DNA from: Acidobacteriota bacterium
GTDB lineage: Bacteria > Acidobacteriota > B3-B38 > Guanabaribacteriales > JAGGZT01
Assembly (NCBI GenBank): GCA_021161905.1
Contig: JAGGZT010000064.1
Span: 1-64,000 of the forward strand
Direction of reading: 5' to 3'
DNA: 64,000 bases
The notes beneath the pieces were generated by a model. It made no database searches. It worked only from the letters and a program-made list of their open reading frames with translations, and was not told the origin of the DNA. This document shows positions 4,302 through 11,787 of this stretch, piece by piece (positions within the stretch are counted from its first letter, which is position 1; each line of letters opens with the position of its first letter). The position numbers and the translations under genes were made by a program.

Positions 4302-5040
4302 CTTCTTCCTCCTTCAGGATGGTGATGAGAAAAGAGGCGTTCTTCGGGGCGTATGCCTCTGGGTCGTTGTTGAAATAACAGTAGATCCGCTTCACCTTTC
4401 CCGAGATCCCCTTTATTACCTTCGCCCACTCCCTGAGCTCCTTCTCCGAGTAGTTGTAATGATACATCCGCGTCGCTCCGTGAAAGCGGAAGTATTTATG
4501 GCGGGCGATGGGGATGGTGAAGGGTTTTATCCCTGGTCCACTTATTGCAGCGAAATCGGCGTTTTTCGCCTTGAGCAGGGAGATCACCTCCTCATTCTCC
4601 CAGCTTGGGTGGCGAAACTCGAAGGTGATGTCGAACTCATCATCGGGGAGAATGGCGAGGAAATCGGAGAGAAGCGAGGGGTTAGCGGGGAAGCTTTCCG
4701 GAAGCTGGAAGAGGATGGCGCCGAGCTTTCCCGTCTCCTTTAAGGGAGAAAGCAGGGAGTAAAACCTTGCGAAGGAACCGGCGACATTTGACAGCTTCTT
4801 CAGGTGGGTGAAGAGCCGGTTTGCCTTGATGGAGAAGAGGAATGAGGCTTTGGTCCGCTCTATTAAGGAGCGGATCATCTTCTCGCTCGGGAACCGATAG
4901 AAGGTGGCGTTTATCTCCACCGTGTTGAACTTCTCTCCATAGTAGGGGAGCATCATCTTCGGGGAGGTCCCTTTGGGGTAGAACCTCCCCACCCAATCCC
5001 GATAATAAAAGCCGGAACAACCTATGTAATAGTCGGTCAT
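4294..5040 (-). CDS. DUF72 (YecE-like) protein
   Basis: 248 residues matching DUF72: the start YYIGCSGFYYRDWVGRFYP, then KFNTVEINATFYRFP, SFLFSIKANRLFTH, LGAILFQLPESF, FEFRHPSW and YFRFHG near the end. The family forms a TIM-barrel and is widespread, but its biochemical role is unknown. Its ATG overlaps the stop of the sigma54 activator (ATGA, 4 bases) and its own stop overlaps the hydrolase start, so the three genes are translated as one unit. Length is usual for the family. Confidence 0.9.
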   Translation of the reverse strand: MTDYYIGCSGFYYRDWVGRFYPKGTSPKMMLPYYGEKFNTVEINATFYRFPSEKMIRSLIERTKASFLFSIKANRLFTHLKKLSNVAGSFARFYSLLSPLKETGKLGAILFQLPESFPANPSLLSDFLAILPDDEFDITFEFRHPSWENEEVISLLKAKNADFAAISGPGIKPFTIPIARHKYFRFHGATRMYHYNYSEKELREWAKVIKGISGKVKRIYCYFNNDPEAYAPKNASFLITILKEEEGG

Positions 5041-7169
5041 CTTTCGTTATTGGTGGGGATGCCGTATCGGGTGAGCTTGCGGTAGAGCGTTTTCCTCCCG
5101 ATGCCGAGTATCTCTGCGGTTCGGGTTTTGTCGTTTCCGGTAGCGGCTAAGGTCTCGAGGATGAGCCTCCGCTCCGCCTCCTCGAGGGAGACCCCAAGGG
5201 GAAGCTCGAGGGTGCGCTCCCCTTCTCCTGCTCTTCTTATTCGCTCAGGCAGTTCCTCTACCGTGATCATCCTCCTTCCCGCCATTATCACCGCCCGCTC
5301 GAGGGCATTTTCCAGCTCGCGCACATTCCCGGGCCAGGAATAAGCCCGAAGGAGCCGCATCGCCTCCTCCGATACTCCTGCTATGTACTTATTCGCCTTC
5401 TTCTGATAGACCTTGAGAAAATGGTCGACGAGGAGAGGGATATCCTCCTTCCGTTCCCGCAACGGGGGTAGGGTTATGGGATAGACATTAAGCCTGAAGA
5501 AAAGGTCCTTGCGAAACCTTCCTTGGGCAACCGCCTCCTCGAGATCGACATTGGTCAGGGCGATGACCCGAACATCCACCCTTATCTTCTCGCTTCCTCC
5601 AAGGCGAGTGAATTCCCCTGTCTCCAGTACCCGAAGGAGCTTGACCTGGGCAGAGGCACTCATCTCGCCGATCTCGTCGAGGAGGAGCGTTCCCCTATGG
5701 GCGAGCTCGAATACCCCCTTTCTCCGCGTTTTCGCATCGGTGAACGCCCCCTTCTCATGTCCGAACAGCTCCGATTCGAGCAGGGTCTCCGGGATCGCTC
5801 CGCAGTTTATCTTTATGTAGGGTTTGTCCTTTCTTCCCGAATTCCTCTGGATGAGATCGGCGAGGAGCTCTTTGCCCGTTCCGCTCTCCCCCTGGATGAG
5901 CACGGTGGTATCGCTTTCGGCGACATTGAGCGCCATTTCCAAGCACTTCCTTATCTCTGGGCTCCGCCCAATGATGATCTCGCTTGCCCGCATCCCTTTA
6001 AGCTCTCGGCGAAGAGCGGTGAGCTCGGTGGAAAGCCTCTCCCGCTCGAGGATGACCGATGCCTGGCTCGCTATTCCCTCGATTAGGGAAAGCTCATAAG
6101 GGCTGAGCTCCTTTTCCTTCCGCCAGATGAGGATAAGAGCACCTAAAGGGTTCCCTCCGCTCGTTATCGGAGCGATTAGCCCTGTTTCGCTGGAGAAGGT
6201 TCGCTTGAGGAGAAGATTGGCGAGCTCTCCTCCCTCTCCCTCCTTGATGGGGATCGCCCTTCCCGACGATAGGTAGTCGTTAAGCAGTGGAGCTTCCTCA
6301 ATCGAGATTATGGGTTTTTGAAGTAGTTTCTCCTCTCCCCCCCTTCCCCTTACCGGGCTGAAGGCGAGCCTCTTTCCTCCGTCCTCAAAGATGCCGATAG
6401 CGCCGTAGTCAGCCTTTAAAAGCTCGAGGCATTTATCAATGAGAAAGGAGGCCATCTCGGCGAGGTCGAGCTTGCTGTTTATCTCCGAGGCGATCTCGAG
6501 AAGCACCTTGGCCACCCTCACCTCTCGTTCTTTCTCCATATAGAGCTCGGTATACTTGAAGCCGATGGCGATCTGGGAGGCGAGGGAGCGAAGGAGGTTT
6601 ACTTCCTCTTGGGGAATTTCCCGGCTATGGCAGAAGTGGAGCCCTATTATCCCGAGTAGCTCCCCTCGGAAGACAATAGGGGTGAGGAGGAGAGAACGGG
6701 TTTTAAGCTTTTCGCAAACGATTTCCCTGAGCGATGAGGGAAGAGGAGAGGAAAGGGTATCCGTTATCACTATAGGGTTTCTTCCCTTAAGGCTTTCTTT
6801 CTTCAGAAGCTGGTCTATTCCTGTTAGGGGAAGATTAAGTGAACTCGGAACCTCGGCTGAAGCGCGGTACTGATAGCGGATGACGAGCTTTCCTCCCTCG
6901 GAGAGGGCGAGATCACAACGGTCTGCCCCCATCATTGCTCCCACCTTATCCACCGTTGCCTGAAGGAACTTATCGAGGTCGATCACCGAGCAGACCTCAG
7001 GGCTTATCCCGGCTATTATCGCCTCCCACTCCTCGTACATCCGGAGTTTTCGGAGGAGTTCAGCTAACTGTTTGTTCATCCCTTTATCCTGTTCCTTGAT
7101 GGGGGTATGATATATCGTCTTCTCCTTATCTGTCAAGGAAGGAGAGGAATTTTTGTTTCTTTTTGGCAC
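5037..7169 (-). CDS. Sigma54-dependent transcriptional activator with two GAF domains (NtrC/NifA-like)
   Basis: Two GAF sensor domains (about residues 50-210 and 220-370) precede an AAA+ domain with Walker A GESGTGKE, sigma54-contact loop GAFTDA (usual GAFTGA), Walker B GTLLLDEIGE and the FRKDLFFRLNVYP block. A Fis-type helix-turn-helix (TRTAEILGIGRKTLYRKL) closes the protein. There is no receiver domain, so activity is probably set by a ligand or redox signal at the GAF domains. The first possible start is GTG at 7169 without a clear ribosome site; ATG at 7079 with AGGA upstream gives a 680-residue protein and may be the true start. A sigma54 promoter lies in the divergent gap next door, making the activase genes the obvious target. 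Confidence 0.92.
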   Translation of the reverse strand: MPKRNKNSSPSLTDKEKTIYHTPIKEQDKGMNKQLAELLRKLRMYEEWEAIIAGISPEVCSVIDLDKFLQATVDKVGAMMGADRCDLALSEGGKLVIRYQYRASAEVPSSLNLPLTGIDQLLKKESLKGRNPIVITDTLSSPLPSSLREIVCEKLKTRSLLLTPIVFRGELLGIIGLHFCHSREIPQEEVNLLRSLASQIAIGFKYTELYMEKEREVRVAKVLLEIASEINSKLDLAEMASFLIDKCLELLKADYGAIGIFEDGGKRLAFSPVRGRGGEEKLLQKPIISIEEAPLLNDYLSSGRAIPIKEGEGGELANLLLKRTFSSETGLIAPITSGGNPLGALILIWRKEKELSPYELSLIEGIASQASVILERERLSTELTALRRELKGMRASEIIIGRSPEIRKCLEMALNVAESDTTVLIQGESGTGKELLADLIQRNSGRKDKPYIKINCGAIPETLLESELFGHEKGAFTDAKTRRKGVFELAHRGTLLLDEIGEMSASAQVKLLRVLETGEFTRLGGSEKIRVDVRVIALTNVDLEEAVAQGRFRKDLFFRLNVYPITLPPLRERKEDIPLLVDHFLKVYQKKANKYIAGVSEEAMRLLRAYSWPGNVRELENALERAVIMAGRRMITVEELPERIRRAGEGERTLELPLGVSLEEAERRLILETLAATGNDKTRTAEILGIGRKTLYRKLTRYGIPTNNER

Positions 7170-7209
7170 ATTATTTTAGTTCATCCCAGATTTATGTATC
7201 ATTTTAACA

Positions 7210-7227
7210 CAAAACAATCGAGTTTTG
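7210..7227. repeat. Inverted repeat CAAAAC-N6-GTTTTG (candidate upstream activator site)
   Basis: A perfect 6+6 dyad with a 6-base spacer in the gap between the sigma54 activator gene and the activase genes, about 155-170 bases upstream of the predicted transcription start. Activators of this family bind dyads 80-200 bases upstream of -24/-12 promoters. Binding is inferred. Confidence 0.4.
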
Positions 7228-7236
7228 CGAGGGTGC

Positions 7237-7253
7237 TGTGTCAAAAAGACACA
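7237..7253. repeat. Inverted repeat TGTGTC-N5-GACACA (candidate upstream activator site)
   Basis: A perfect 6+6 dyad around AAAAA, about 128-144 bases upstream of the predicted start of the activase transcript. This is the distance and symmetry expected for an enhancer-binding activator site. It is the best operator candidate for the activator encoded at 5037-7169; whether that protein binds it is inference. Confidence 0.5.
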
Positions 7254-7272
7254 AAAGCGCTCCGCTGACGAT

Positions 7273-7290
7273 GGGGAGGATTTTCTCCCC
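7273..7290. repeat. Hairpin GGGGAG-N6-CTCCCC in the divergent gap
   Basis: A short perfect dyad lying between the upstream sites and the -24/-12 promoter. It has no T-run after it, so a terminator is unlikely. It could be a further protein site or a structural element; no function can be assigned. Confidence 0.3.
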
Positions 7291-7354
7291 GAGGGACCTT
7301 TGGGGAACCGGTTCTATTTAAAGCGGTTTTTCGCTCTTCGGGTTTTCCACTTAA

Positions 7355-7370
7355 TGGCATATTTTTTGCT
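7355..7370 (+). promoter_or_regulatory. Sigma54 (-24/-12) promoter of the activase operon
   Basis: TGGCAT-ATTTT-TTGCT: the GG (7356-7357) and GC (7368-7369) are separated by exactly 10 bases, as sigma54 holoenzyme requires, and both flanks fit the consensus TGGCAC-N5-TTGCA closely. The predicted start is near 7381, giving a leader of about 58 bases ahead of the ATG at 7439. A sigma54 activator gene is divergent next to it. Confidence 0.75.
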
Positions 7371-7438
7371 TAATAAAACGAAGTGGATAGGTTAGGCAAT
7401 AATTTTCTGAGAAAATAGATATTTAGGAGCGAGGTGAA

Positions 7439-10400
7439 ATGGGAGTAAAGATTGGGATTGATGTTGGCTCAATAAGCGTTAAGTTGGCGGTCGTCGGCGA
7501 TAAGGAGGACCGCAGCTGGTTCTCTGATCTCGCAGCCCGTCCCCTTTTCTATCTCCCGAACGGTTCCCCCGAGGTGGGCAAGGAGGAGAGACCCTTCCTC
7601 GTCACCTCCTATCAACGGATAAAGGGAAGTCCGGTAGCGATAGTTGAAGACCTGCTGAAGGAGCTCTTTCAGGTCATCCCGCGGGAGAAGATAGAAGGGG
7701 TAAGGCTCACCGGCTCTGGGGGTAAGTTGATAAGCGAGCTTCTTGGTGTCGCTTATGAGAACGAGTTCAAAGCGATAGCCAAAGGGATGGAGTTCCTCTA
7801 TCCCGATGTGCGTACCGTCTTTGAGATGGGGGGCGAGGTCTCGAAGTACCTCCGTCTGGAGCCAGATGAATCATCGGGTAGCTTGGGGATCGTTGATTAC
7901 GAGAAGAGCGGAGACTGTGCTGCTGGCACCGGCTCTTTTATGGATGTGCAGGCGATAAGGCTCAAGTACAAGGTCGAAGATATTGGAGAGATCGTCCTTT
8001 CCACCGAAAAGGCAGCGAAGATAGCGGGAAGATGTTCCGTCTTCGCCAAATCGGATATGATCCACGCCCAGCAGAAAGGATACACTCCACCCGAGATACT
8101 TAAAGGGCTCTGCGAGGCGGTGGCGCGGAACTTCAAGGGGAGCATAACCAAGGGGAAGAAGGTAGTGCCTAAGGTGGCGATGATCGGCGGTATGGCGGCG
8201 AATAAAGGGGTGGTGGCAGCGATTGAGGATGTCTTCGATATCCCTCGGGGAGAGCTTTTCATCCCGCCTTATTACGCCTGGATAGAAGCGATAGGTGCTG
8301 CCTATATGGAGGCGATAGCCACATCCCGGGCTAATGTGCTTGAGGATTTCGGCAGGCTGAGGGAATACATCGAGCAGGTGGAATTCAACTTCCCCACCCA
8401 AGAACCGCTCGACAGGAAGAACCTTATCCTCTTAAGGGAGCGGGTTAAGCCTTACTCCTTTGAGGGGAAGAAGGGGAAAGTTCCCGCTTATCTGGGGATA
8501 GATATCGGTTCAGTCTCCACCAATTTGGCGGTGATCGATGAGGAGGGTGAGGTTATAAAGACGATATATACCAGGACGAAGGCGCGCCCCATCGAGGTGG
8601 TGGCTGAGGGGCTGAAGGAGATCGAACGGGATATAGGAGATAAGATAGAGATAAAGGGTGTCGGCACCACTGGTTCTGGCAGGGAGCTTATCGGAAAGCT
8701 CATTGGTGCCGACACCATAAGAGACGAGATAACCGCACATAAGACCGGTTCCTTCTTCATCGGGAGGAAGCTACTCGACCTTGAGCCGGATACCATCTTT
8801 GACATCGGGGGGCAGGATTCAAAGTACATCTCCCTTGATAAGGGGATCGTAGTCGATTTCACGATGAACGAAGCCTGTGCCGCTGGTACCGGTTCCTTCC
8901 TTGAGGAGCGGGCAGAGGAGCTTGGCATAAACATCGTTGGAGAGTTTGCTGAGCTCGCTTTCCGCTCCAAAGCCCCCATCCGTTTGGGTGAGCGGTGCAC
9001 CGTGTTTATGGAGCGGGATGTGAACGCCTATCTCCAGAAGGGGGCGAAGGTAGTCGATCTCGTCGCCGGGCTCGCCTATTCGGTGGTCTATAACTACATC
9101 AACCGGGTAGTCCGGGGAAGGAAGATCGGAAAGGTCATCTTCTTCCAGGGAGGAACCGCTTACAACGATGCGGTTGCCGCCGCTTTCTCCAAGGTGCTGG
9201 GACAGAAGATCATCGTCCCTCCTCACAACGGGGTTATGGGGGCAATTGGAGCAGCACTCCTCGCTAAGGAGAAGGTGGAAGCTACTGGAGAGAAGACCAA
9301 ATTCCGCGGTTATGACCTTTCCAAGGTGAAATATGAGCTCAAGGAGTTTACCTGCCATGGTTGCACCAACTATTGCGATATCCAGATGTTTGTGGTGGAG
9401 GGAGAGAAGACTTTTTGGGGCGATAAATGCTCCGAGCGGTATCGGAAGGAGGTGAAGCTGGAGCGGGAGCCGGTCATCCCCAACTTGATCAAGATGCGAG
9501 AGGAATGGCTCCTTGAGGATTACGATCCGAATCGCGGGGGAGAAACGGTAGTCGGCATTCCCCGGGCGATGTACACCTACGATTGGTTCCCCTTCTGGAA
9601 CGCCTTTTTCTCCGAGCTCGGTTTCCGGGTCCTTCTTTCCGATCCTACCAATAAGAAGATAGTGAACGAAGGGGTGGAGGCGGTGGTCGCCGAGCCCTGC
9701 TTCCCGATAAAGGTGGCTCATGGACATGTGAAAGTGCTTCTTGATGCAGGGGTTGATTTCGTCTTCGTCCCCAACTTAATCAATGTAGAGACCAAGTTCA
9801 CCCACACCCAATCCTATGTCTGTAATTGGGGGATGACCCTGCCCTTTGTCCTTTCCGCTTCCCCGAGGATTGAGCCCTATAAGGACAGGATCTTCCATCC
9901 CACCCTCCGCTTCCGGTTGGGTAGGGAGCATATCGAGGAGGTGCTCGCGAGGGAGATGAAGCGGTTCGGTATCAGACGGAAGAAGGTTAAGCAGGCGCTC
10001 GATGCCGCCTATCGCGCCCGTGAGCGGTTTAACGAGAAGCTCATCGAAGCAGGGCGGGAAGCGCTCCGCATTCTTGAGGAGAAGGGAGAGCAGGGAATCA
10101 TTCTCGTGGGGCGTCCCTACAACATCTACGACAAGGAGCAGAATTTAGACATTCCGGGCAAGCTTCGCGACTATAACGGGGTCAATGTTATCCCTTATGA
10201 TTTCCTCGATTTAGAGGATATAGACATTCGGGATGTGAACCCCAATATGTTCTGGAACTACGGGCGGAGGATCTTAGCCACCGCTAAGTTTATCAAGGAC
10301 AAACCACATCTTCATATAATCTATATCACCAACTTCAAATGCGGTCCCGATTCCTATGTGAAGCAGTTTGTGGATAAGGCATCGGGACGACCTTTCCTTG

Positions 10401-10513
10401 CCCTTCAGTTTGATGGGCATTCGAACGATGCCGGGTTCATCACCCGGTGTGAGGCATATTTAGACAGCAAGGGAGTGCTCAGATGGTGGAAGAAAGAAGA
10501 GAGAGCTTCTTAG
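7439..10513 (+). CDS. 2-hydroxyacyl-CoA dehydratase activase (BadF/BadG/HgdC duplicated) with DUF2229-like C-terminal region
   Basis: 1024 residues. Two ASKHA-type ATPase modules of the activase family lie in tandem: the first starts IGIDVGSISVKLAVV and has CAAGTGSFMD and GRCSVFAKSD; the second starts LGIDIGSVSTNLAVI and has CAAGTGSFLEE and GERCTVFMERD. The cysteines are the likely iron-sulfur ligands. The C-terminal third (VVGIPRAMYTYDWFPFWNAF, EPCFPIK) is DUF2229-like. Such proteins use ATP to drive a low-potential electron into a partner iron-sulfur enzyme and are oxygen sensitive. The start ATG has GGAGCGAGG upstream. No dehydratase subunit genes are next to it, so the partner is unknown. 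In many genomes this protein is fused to the product of the next gene. Confidence 0.9.
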   Translation: MGVKIGIDVGSISVKLAVVGDKEDRSWFSDLAARPLFYLPNGSPEVGKEERPFLVTSYQRIKGSPVAIVEDLLKELFQVIPREKIEGVRLTGSGGKLISELLGVAYENEFKAIAKGMEFLYPDVRTVFEMGGEVSKYLRLEPDESSGSLGIVDYEKSGDCAAGTGSFMDVQAIRLKYKVEDIGEIVLSTEKAAKIAGRCSVFAKSDMIHAQQKGYTPPEILKGLCEAVARNFKGSITKGKKVVPKVAMIGGMAANKGVVAAIEDVFDIPRGELFIPPYYAWIEAIGAAYMEAIATSRANVLEDFGRLREYIEQVEFNFPTQEPLDRKNLILLRERVKPYSFEGKKGKVPAYLGIDIGSVSTNLAVIDEEGEVIKTIYTRTKARPIEVVAEGLKEIERDIGDKIEIKGVGTTGSGRELIGKLIGADTIRDEITAHKTGSFFIGRKLLDLEPDTIFDIGGQDSKYISLDKGIVVDFTMNEACAAGTGSFLEERAEELGINIVGEFAELAFRSKAPIRLGERCTVFMERDVNAYLQKGAKVVDLVAGLAYSVVYNYINRVVRGRKIGKVIFFQGGTAYNDAVAAAFSKVLGQKIIVPPHNGVMGAIGAALLAKEKVEATGEKTKFRGYDLSKVKYELKEFTCHGCTNYCDIQMFVVEGEKTFWGDKCSERYRKEVKLEREPVIPNLIKMREEWLLEDYDPNRGGETVVGIPRAMYTYDWFPFWNAFFSELGFRVLLSDPTNKKIVNEGVEAVVAEPCFPIKVAHGHVKVLLDAGVDFVFVPNLINVETKFTHTQSYVCNWGMTLPFVLSASPRIEPYKDRIFHPTLRFRLGREHIEEVLAREMKRFGIRRKKVKQALDAAYRARERFNEKLIEAGREALRILEEKGEQGIILVGRPYNIYDKEQNLDIPGKLRDYNGVNVIPYDFLDLEDIDIRDVNPNMFWNYGRRILATAKFIKDKPHLHIIYITNFKCGPDSYVKQFVDKASGRPFLALQFDGHSNDAGFITRCEAYLDSKGVLRWWKKEERAS

Positions 10514-11787
10514 TGGGAAAGAAGGTCTATATCCCCAGGATGACCTGGGGGGGGGCGATGGCGTTTGCTGCCGCCGCCCGGGCGATAGGGGTGGATGCGG
10601 AGATATCTCCGGAGTCGGATAAGAGGGCGATGGAGCTTGGGGCAAAGTTCACCTCAGGCGATGAGTGCTATCCAGCAAAGGTGACTATGGGGGAGTTGAT
10701 GAAGGTGACCGAGCTTCCTGGCTTTGTTCCGGAGAAAACCGTTTTCTTTATGCCCACCTCTACTGGTCCCTGCCGTTTTGGACAGTATGCCCCGTATCTT
10801 CGGAGGATTCTCAGGGAGCTTGGATACGAAAAGGTGATCGTCTTTGACCCGAGCTCAGAGAACGGCTACGATGAGGTGGGAGCTCAGGCAGGGGAATTGA
10901 TGCGCACCGGTTGGTGGGCGCTCGTTGCCTCAGATTTTCTCAGGAAGATGCTCTTAAAAACTCGTCCTTATGAGATCCACAAAGGGGATACCGATGCGGT
11001 CTATCAAGAGGCGATCCACGATCTCTGCCGGGTGTTGGAGCAACCCGGGGTGAAGCTCAAGGTGAAGTTCAACAATATATTGGAATCCCTTACCCGCTCT
11101 CGTGATAAATTCCGGATGATTCCGGCGAAATACGACCCTACCCGGCCTCTTATCGGGGTGGTGGGAGAGATATTCTGCCGTCTAAACCGGTTTAGCAACG
11201 AGGAGCTGGTACGCAAGATCGAGGAGCATGGAGGGGAGGCGTGGCTCTCCGATGTGTCGGAATGGATCTGGTATACCAATTGGGAGCAGCAGAAGAACCT
11301 GCGGATGATGGGGAAGCGGTTCTCGAAGGATATGCTTTTTGCCAAGATAAAAGCGTTCGTTCAGAAGCACGACGAGCACAGGCTGAGGAAGCCGTTTGAA
11401 GAGGAGTTCGTAGGCTACGAGGAGCCGGAGGCGGATGAGCTAATGCGCTATTCCGAGCCCTATCTTCCACCGCAGGGATGCCTTGGGGAGATGGTTCTCT
11501 CTATAGGAAAGACGATCTACCTCTATCATAAAGGGGCGGATGGGATCATAGACATCAGTCCCTTCACCTGTATGAACGGCATCACTTGTGAAGCGATTTA
11601 TCCCTCGGTGAGCCGGGATTATGATGGGCTCCCCATCCGCAACTTTTACTTCGATGGAACCCAGTACGACATCGACCGCGATTTAGGGATCTTTATGGAG
11701 CTCGCCCGAACCTATCAGAAACGGAAGAAGAAGAGGAGGACCTATCCTTTCTACTTCAAACTGGATACGGGTGCTACCGTTCACTGA
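10483..11787 (+). CDS. Activase-associated protein (C-terminal portion of large activase proteins, HgdB-like)
   Basis: 434 residues starting MVEERRESFLVGKKVYIPRM and continuing SGDECYPAKVTMGEL, FMPTSTGPCRFGQY, GEIFCRLNRFSNEE, WLSDVSEWIWYTN and DISPFTCMNGITCEA. This matches the C-terminal region normally fused to tandem activase proteins, with conserved cysteines suited to an iron-sulfur site. It overlaps the previous gene by 31 bases, with a GGGAG ribosome site before the ATG, so it may be a true separate gene. The downstream frame is, however, the one expected after loss of one base, so a broken fusion is also possible. Confidence 0.85.
   Translation: MVEERRESFLVGKKVYIPRMTWGGAMAFAAAARAIGVDAEISPESDKRAMELGAKFTSGDECYPAKVTMGELMKVTELPGFVPEKTVFFMPTSTGPCRFGQYAPYLRRILRELGYEKVIVFDPSSENGYDEVGAQAGELMRTGWWALVASDFLRKMLLKTRPYEIHKGDTDAVYQEAIHDLCRVLEQPGVKLKVKFNNILESLTRSRDKFRMIPAKYDPTRPLIGVVGEIFCRLNRFSNEELVRKIEEHGGEAWLSDVSEWIWYTNWEQQKNLRMMGKRFSKDMLFAKIKAFVQKHDEHRLRKPFEEEFVGYEEPEADELMRYSEPYLPPQGCLGEMVLSIGKTIYLYHKGADGIIDISPFTCMNGITCEAIYPSVSRDYDGLPIRNFYFDGTQYDIDRDLGIFMELARTYQKRKKKRRTYPFYFKLDTGATVH

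Follow-up and report, generated by a model that had tools for sequence, protein, structure and literature searches.

A probable NorR-like sigma54 switch upstream of a candidate ether-lipid operon in an Acidobacteriota genome

The region between a sigma54 activator gene and a divergent two-gene operon in the window (the whole 64 kb stretch of DNA analysed here) probably constitutes a sigma54 switch of the NorR kind that controls ether-lipid synthesis, with a PlsA/Ger-type operon as its target. This reading draws on the promoter match, a three-site array and its conservation, the co-occurrence of this array with the regulator, and the protein domains encoded on either side, from which we infer binding, ring assembly, the transcript and the reaction catalysed. 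Bacterial branched tetraethers serve as palaeoclimate thermometers, and their producers and the timing of their synthesis are described as unsettled (PMC13274423). Having a candidate regulator, operator and promoter for an operon that probably forms ethers would help to establish when ether lipids are produced; the window genome also encodes two tetraether-synthase homologues, and the target matters for both ether-lipid and brGDGT biology. The features of the locus are:

5037–7079, minus strand: sigma54 activator (bEBP), 680 aa from ATG 7079; assigned from Pfam domains and motifs, start placed by conservation
7107–7136, minus strand: sigma70-type promoter of the activator, TTGACA-N18-TATCAT, matching at 11 of 12 positions, with counterparts in relatives
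7154–7170, no strand: putative enhancer site 1 (distal), TGTTTCTTTTTGGCACA, two mismatches, upstream of the activator's own -35
7195–7211, no strand: putative enhancer site 2, TGTATCATTTTAACACA, two mismatches, 41 bp from site 1
7210–7227, no strand: other perfect dyad, CAAAAC-N6-GTTTTG, 6-bp arms, judged to lie outside the system
7237–7253, no strand: putative enhancer site 3 (proximal), TGTGTCAAAAAGACACA, perfect dyad TGTGTC-N5-GACACA, 42 bp from site 2
7355–7370, plus strand: -24/-12 promoter, TGGCATATTTTTTGCT, assigned from the full consensus match, genome counts and comparison with relatives
7381, plus strand: predicted transcription start
7425–7429, plus strand: likely ribosome binding site (AGGAG), located 9 nt upstream of ATG 7439, read from the sequence
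7439–10513, plus strand: operon gene 1, 1024 aa, PlsA/Ger-like, two BcrAD_BadFG ATPase domains and DUF2229
10483–11787, plus strand: operon gene 2, 434 aa, second reductase-type subunit, PlsR-like, assigned from structure model matches

The strict sigma54 consensus is TGGCAYRNNNNTTGCW. The element TGGCATATTTTTTGCT at 7355–7370 matches it in full, with both halves (TGGCAYR..TTGCW) intact and a gap of exactly 10 bases between GG and GC, and it is the sole exact -24/-12 match in the 64 kb window. An earlier note on this DNA had proposed a promoter with precisely this spacing and a transcription start near 7381; both were recovered here, the start being predicted at the same position by setting C7369 to -12. 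Scanning the entire window genome (2,092,333 bases, 72 contigs) revealed 10 exact matches, compared to 0 for a reversed control pattern, and nine of the 10, including 7355–7370, are located just 5' of a correctly oriented gene. The genes behind these genomic sites, named by eye from their sequence, included LpxC-like, outer-membrane-like, TonB-receptor-like, pilin-like and FecR-like ones. The proposal had been made dependent on rpoN, which is present in the window genome as a single copy (459.8 bits in a profile search), alongside seven strong bEBP matches. Judged by its sequence, the sigma54 promoter at 7355–7370 is real. The tenth exact site (G000:C6:7155–7170; L177 2356–2371) follows shortly after a bEBP gene of the GAFTDA type; no non-overlapping ORF of at least 70 aa was found downstream of it on the same strand, and a small RNA could be its target.

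The divergent activator shows Pfam matches to Sigma54_activat (233.8 bits), AAA_lid_14, two GAF domains and HTH_8. All hallmarks of a bEBP are found in its sequence, i.e. the AAA+ Walker A (GESGTGKE) and Walker B (LLLDEIGE) motifs, a Fis-type HTH and a GAFTGA-type sigma54 loop, the latter as the variant GAFTDA. Together with rpoN and the dyad/regulator co-occurrence described below, this GAF-GAF-AAA+-Fis architecture supports the earlier proposal of a sigma54 control region between activator and operon. The start of the activator is most likely ATG 7079, because conservation begins there, which sets the intergenic gap at 7080–7438; GTG 7169, the start of the longest ORF, would place site 1 over the start codon and was rejected. 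Six of the relatives read carry counterparts of the sigma70-type promoter ahead of their orthologous regulator gene, matching at 9 to 11 of 12 positions. Since site 1 lies just upstream of the regulator's own -35 (17 nt in the window; 6–8 nt in G001, G002, G031 and G018), self-regulation is possible.

With regard to the loop, the NorR variant G266D corresponds to a GAFTDA change and forms open complexes independently of its GAF domain (PMC2941729), and DVU2106 carries a natural GAFTDA and has assigned targets (PMC4641369). By analogy to these two proteins, GAFTDA is compatible with sigma54 activation. Going by G266D, the activator may be signal-independent, so that the GAF-sensed signal proposed in the earlier note may or may not gate its activity. 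Oxygen is reported to affect such lipids in some Acidobacteria (PMC13274423), and oxygen or redox as the GAF signal would be a guess based on this effect.

At up to two mismatches, TGTGTC-N5-GACACA occurs in the window only at 7154, 7195 and 7237, all within the intergenic gap; the degenerate copies at 7154–7170 and 7195–7211 had been overlooked in the earlier note. The site centres are located 136, 178 and 219 bp upstream of 7381, and the spacings of 41 and 42 bp would place the sites on about one helix face, approximately four helical turns apart. The three-site array sums up to 4 mismatches, versus a minimum of 14 among 3000 dinucleotide shuffles (0/3000). Both perfect dyads on which the earlier note had focused exist, and the one at 7237–7253 is conserved; a role of 7210–7227 as an enhancer found no support. 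Perfect 6-bp dyads number 5 in the 359-bp gap (shuffle mean 1.2; 63% of 1000 shuffles contain one or more), and no counterpart of 7210–7227 was visible by eye in the gaps of the relatives. Based on this chance-level occurrence and the lack of a visible counterpart, it was rejected as an enhancer. The idea that the same dyads recur elsewhere in the genome did not hold either, as 7237–7253 is the only copy in the window genome at up to one mismatch. A wide dyad regulon was also rejected: across 12 genomes, other matches were scattered and mostly at control level, except for G061 (12 matches versus 0 in the control), where several represent one repeated sequence.

Related operons were surveyed at three scales, yielding 10 of 60 relatives at E ≤ 1e-100, 37 of 396 genomes of the phylum at 1e-150 (fused forms of ~1400 aa included) and, across many phyla, the best 80 of 312 relatives. 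Two genomes of the window's order harbouring the orthologous operon (G001 and G002) share with the window a divergent GAFTDA regulator, three sites 41–42 bp apart and a GG-N8-TTGC promoter, the middle site of G002 having 4 mismatches. None of 3000 shuffles reached the observed array score in the window, G001, G002, the tes region of G061 or the Nitrospinota sequence L040. For the 98 rows that offered 120 bp or more of upstream sequence, some of which repeat a genome, the best triple of sites had at most 11 mismatches in 11 rows and at least 14 in the other 87. The pattern GG-N8-TTGC, chosen after the sites had been seen, was present in 5/5 window-type arrays, in 0/6 with a degenerate regulator and in 4/83 control rows. 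Overall, window-type cases are few and comprise the two close genomes (f1, f2), L040, where the regulator is not visible, and G061, where it is found elsewhere in the genome.

L040 (Nitrospinota JAUXIQ010000100.1, 1–326) belongs to another phylum and shows a full array and a sigma54-like promoter before a PlsA/Ger-like operon. Its sites are spaced by 41 and 41 bp with 9 mismatches in total (0/3000 shuffles), AGGAACCATTTTTGCA is located at -75, and the contig ends 326 bp upstream, before any divergent regulator; a divergent GAF-bEBP with a GAFTGA-type loop is predicted for the missing flank.

In the acidobacterial genome G061, the array precedes a Tes homologue (L185 2638–4299 and 4497–4596), and the GAF-bEBP homologue is encoded on another contig. 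The sites at -297, -255 and -214 have 0, 4 and 1 mismatches and are 42 and 41 bp apart (0/3000 shuffles); they are accompanied by GGACCTTGATTTGC at -66, a GG-N10-GC element. The gene itself scored 567.5 bits, above the 450-bit cut-off for the tetraether lipid synthase Tes. A site-pair pattern gave single matches in 4 of 396 genomes and none in the control, the matches being three operons and the Tes gene of G061; since the pattern was written with its four matches known, the test consists only in the absence of further matches in the 396 genomes and the control.

A different picture emerged for the regulators of six other relatives (G018, G031, G043, G067, G078 and G055), which lack the AAA+ hallmarks of a bEBP: GAFTGA is missing and Walker B changed in 6/6, and the Walker A Lys is replaced by Arg in four. 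Sigma54_activat scores dropped to 67.7, 97.2 and 46.9 bits in the three degenerate copies scanned, versus 233.8 and 230.5 bits in two intact ones. A dyad with up to two mismatches is kept in each of these genomes, and GG-N8-TTGC is absent from the last 200 bp in all six. Sigma70-like hexamers were found as TTGACT-17-CATAAT in three genomes, TTGACA-17-GATAAT in G018 and TTGACA-17-AATACT in G078, and were read by eye in G055. In G031, G043 and G067, 7 nt separate the end of the second site from the -35, a position that would suit activation, and a weak third site overlaps the -10, which would suit repression. In these six relatives, transcription of the operon seems to have shifted to a sigma70 promoter next to a kept operator, and the locus offers a natural comparison of sigma54 and sigma70 promoters behind one operator. 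Loss of rpoN was rejected as the cause of this change, as rpoN is present in 8/8 relatives searched (G055 and G067 not among them). The degenerate regulators form one clade in the regulator tree (100/100); because of their long branches and odd composition, a single loss of the sigma54 engine is not claimed.

Since the sites are kept in six genomes whose bEBP has lost the sigma54 engine, they need no working bEBP ATPase, and their position beside sigma70-like promoters would suit a different regulator, e.g. a repressor, that binds the dyads while the neighbouring bEBP acts elsewhere. We regard this as very unlikely in view of how sites and regulator are distributed. At up to two mismatches, a site was found in 9/9 genomes in which the regulator adjoins the operon, compared to 2/17 upstream of regulator homologues located away from the operon within the phylum and 2/88 operon rows without a regulator nearby (L040 and L042; some rows repeat a genome). 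Sites and regulator occur together and are mostly absent where either stands alone, and the Fis-type HTH is retained in the degenerate copies. The dyad-like match of L042 lies inside the upstream gene and was taken as chance. Among the 17 homologues away from the operon, 16 carry GAFTDA and one GSFTDA; two GAF-bEBP homologues not adjoining the operon (L160 and L161) have TGTGTCAACTTGACATT at about -91 of the regulator start. It could also be argued that the degenerate regulators are decaying genes without consequence and the dyad a leftover, given the changed or missing Walker A, Walker B and GAFTGA motifs and the unusual branches in the tree. However, all six keep an open reading frame of 660 codons or more, GAF and HTH matches were obtained for the three scanned, the dyad survives, and two f17 genera show a common arrangement of sites and promoter, which makes mere decay very unlikely.

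The identity of the target was assessed from both operon genes. Gene 1 contains two PF01869 domains and DUF2229 (Pfam) and aligns near full-length, at 28–34% identity, with proteins of Listeria, Fusobacterium and Paraclostridium; these homologues came from a plasmid search and are all plainly annotated. For gene 2, NCBIfam gave no name and Pfam no more than a partial DUF2229 match, and searching its sequence against solved structures gave two weak histone matches only, taken as chance. Its structure model (pLDDT 88.7) matches subunits of DCCP, benzoyl-CoA reductase and 2-hydroxyisocaproyl-CoA dehydratase (10 matches at E ≤ 0.001, TM 0.40–0.45), and cysteines C62, C97 and C363, invariant in 45 sequences, would suit cluster ligands. 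PlsA/PlsR of Clostridium perfringens and Ger of Thermotoga and Desulfatibacillum, including the alkyl-ether-forming Ger, likewise comprise two activation domains and reductase parts, encoded by two genes or one gene of ~1400 aa (PMC13274423, PMC12838417), and such a make-up is also described for ester-to-(vinyl) ether enzymes (PMC8788747). As far as the cited account goes, Ger and PlsA, with their alkyl and vinyl products, are inseparable by sequence (PMC13274423). Judged by the published layout, the best interpretation of the window operon, with its two PF01869 domains and reductase parts divided between two genes, is that of a split PlsA/Ger-type reductase, which would convert glycerol ester lipids to ethers. 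DUF2229, which we assume to be part of the PlsA/PlsR-Ger definition, gave matches in 4/14 control genomes, including those of T. maritima and L. lactis. Ger or PlsA has been reported in the groups of these two species (PMC13274423, PMC8788747, PMC12838417). The earlier prediction of an activating ATPase as the target was correct with respect to the ATPase domains, and 'activase' alone turned out to be a misnomer for an operon with its own reductase-type subunits. The sigma54 switch might still be real and the operon a general low-potential activase/reductase serving another dehydratase instead of lipids. The sole NCBIfam name obtained, TIGR00241 'acyl-CoA dehydratase activase' (283 bits over a cut-off of 125), would agree with this, as would the closest solved structures of gene 1 by sequence, namely benzoyl-CoA reductase subunits, 2-hydroxyacyl-CoA dehydratase activators and a DCCP-type activase. 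We consider it unlikely, however, as gene 2 provides a reductase-type subunit, the domain layout is that reported for PlsA/PlsR and Ger, and the same array stands before a Tes gene in G061.

Under the preferred reading of a NorR-like switch for ether-lipid synthesis, the activator would be expressed from its own sigma70 promoter (7136–7107) and bind the three TGTGTC-N5-GACACA sites, on which a ring would form, as for NorR on its three enhancers. The GAFTDA loop would remodel sigma54 RNA polymerase at 7355–7370, and transcription would start near 7381. The product of the two-gene operon would be an ATP-driven PlsA/Ger-type reductase that turns glycerol ester lipids into vinyl or alkyl ethers. 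In the six relatives, the regulator would have lost its sigma54 engine, leaving the operon on a sigma70 promoter beside the kept operator.

There are precedents for a GAF-bEBP acting on three enhancers, for GAFTGA-less bEBPs at sigma70 promoters and for the PlsA/Ger enzymes. In E. coli, NorR/norR-norVW likewise combines a GAF-bEBP with three intergenic enhancer sites upstream of a sigma54 promoter (PMC2941729). The window activator differs from NorR by its two GAF domains, the even 41–42 bp site spacing and its target, and its score of 326 bits remains below the NCBIfam equivalog cut-off of 476 bits for NorR. The NorR site differs in sequence from TGTGTC-N5-GACACA. The NtrC proteins of Caulobacter and Rhodobacter capsulatus that lack GAFTGA have lost the sigma54 loop and act at sigma70 promoters (PMC10274813), thereby resembling the six relatives and not the window; in contrast to these NtrC proteins, the regulators of the six relatives show losses that reach into Walker A/B and are of the GAF type, and both promoter classes are found with one and the same operator at a single locus. 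Within the literature covered on regulators of such ether-lipid genes, the only regulatory hint found for the PlsA/PlsR-Ger group concerns E. faecalis, in the form of a TetR-type gene (PMC9702350), whereas the window operon is paired with a sigma54 activator. The novel elements are that such a switch is paired with a probable ether-lipid operon, that it recurs before a Tes gene, and that the promoter class changes while the operator is kept.

These observations could tentatively, and with considerable doubt, be combined into one regulon for ether and membrane-spanning lipids, which would be a bacterial first: a GAF sensor with a three-site enhancer would drive Ger in one lineage and, in a second, Tes, with redox or oxygen as a possible signal, and a third lineage would have kept the operator, lost the ATPase engine and changed from sigma54 to sigma70. 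Tes-like matches at E ≤ 1e-20 were obtained in 13/13 genomes searched. Among 18 rows inspected for dyads before Tes genes (4 of them without upstream sequence), sites were seen in G061 only, plus a 3-mismatch match before a fragment (L207). The PlsA/Ger-like gene 1 of G061 (L113/L135, G061:C309) contains one in-frame TGA and may be broken or misassembled; no dyad was found upstream of it. With respect to the Tes/Mss group of tetraether and membrane-spanning lipid enzymes, the window genome encodes two Tes homologues outside the window, scoring 619 and 579.7 bits and above the curated cut-off, neither of which has a dyad upstream. The second is located on contig C4. The first, on C60 (L192 838–3072), directly follows a CDP-alcohol phosphatidyltransferase gene, with which it likely forms a lipid operon.
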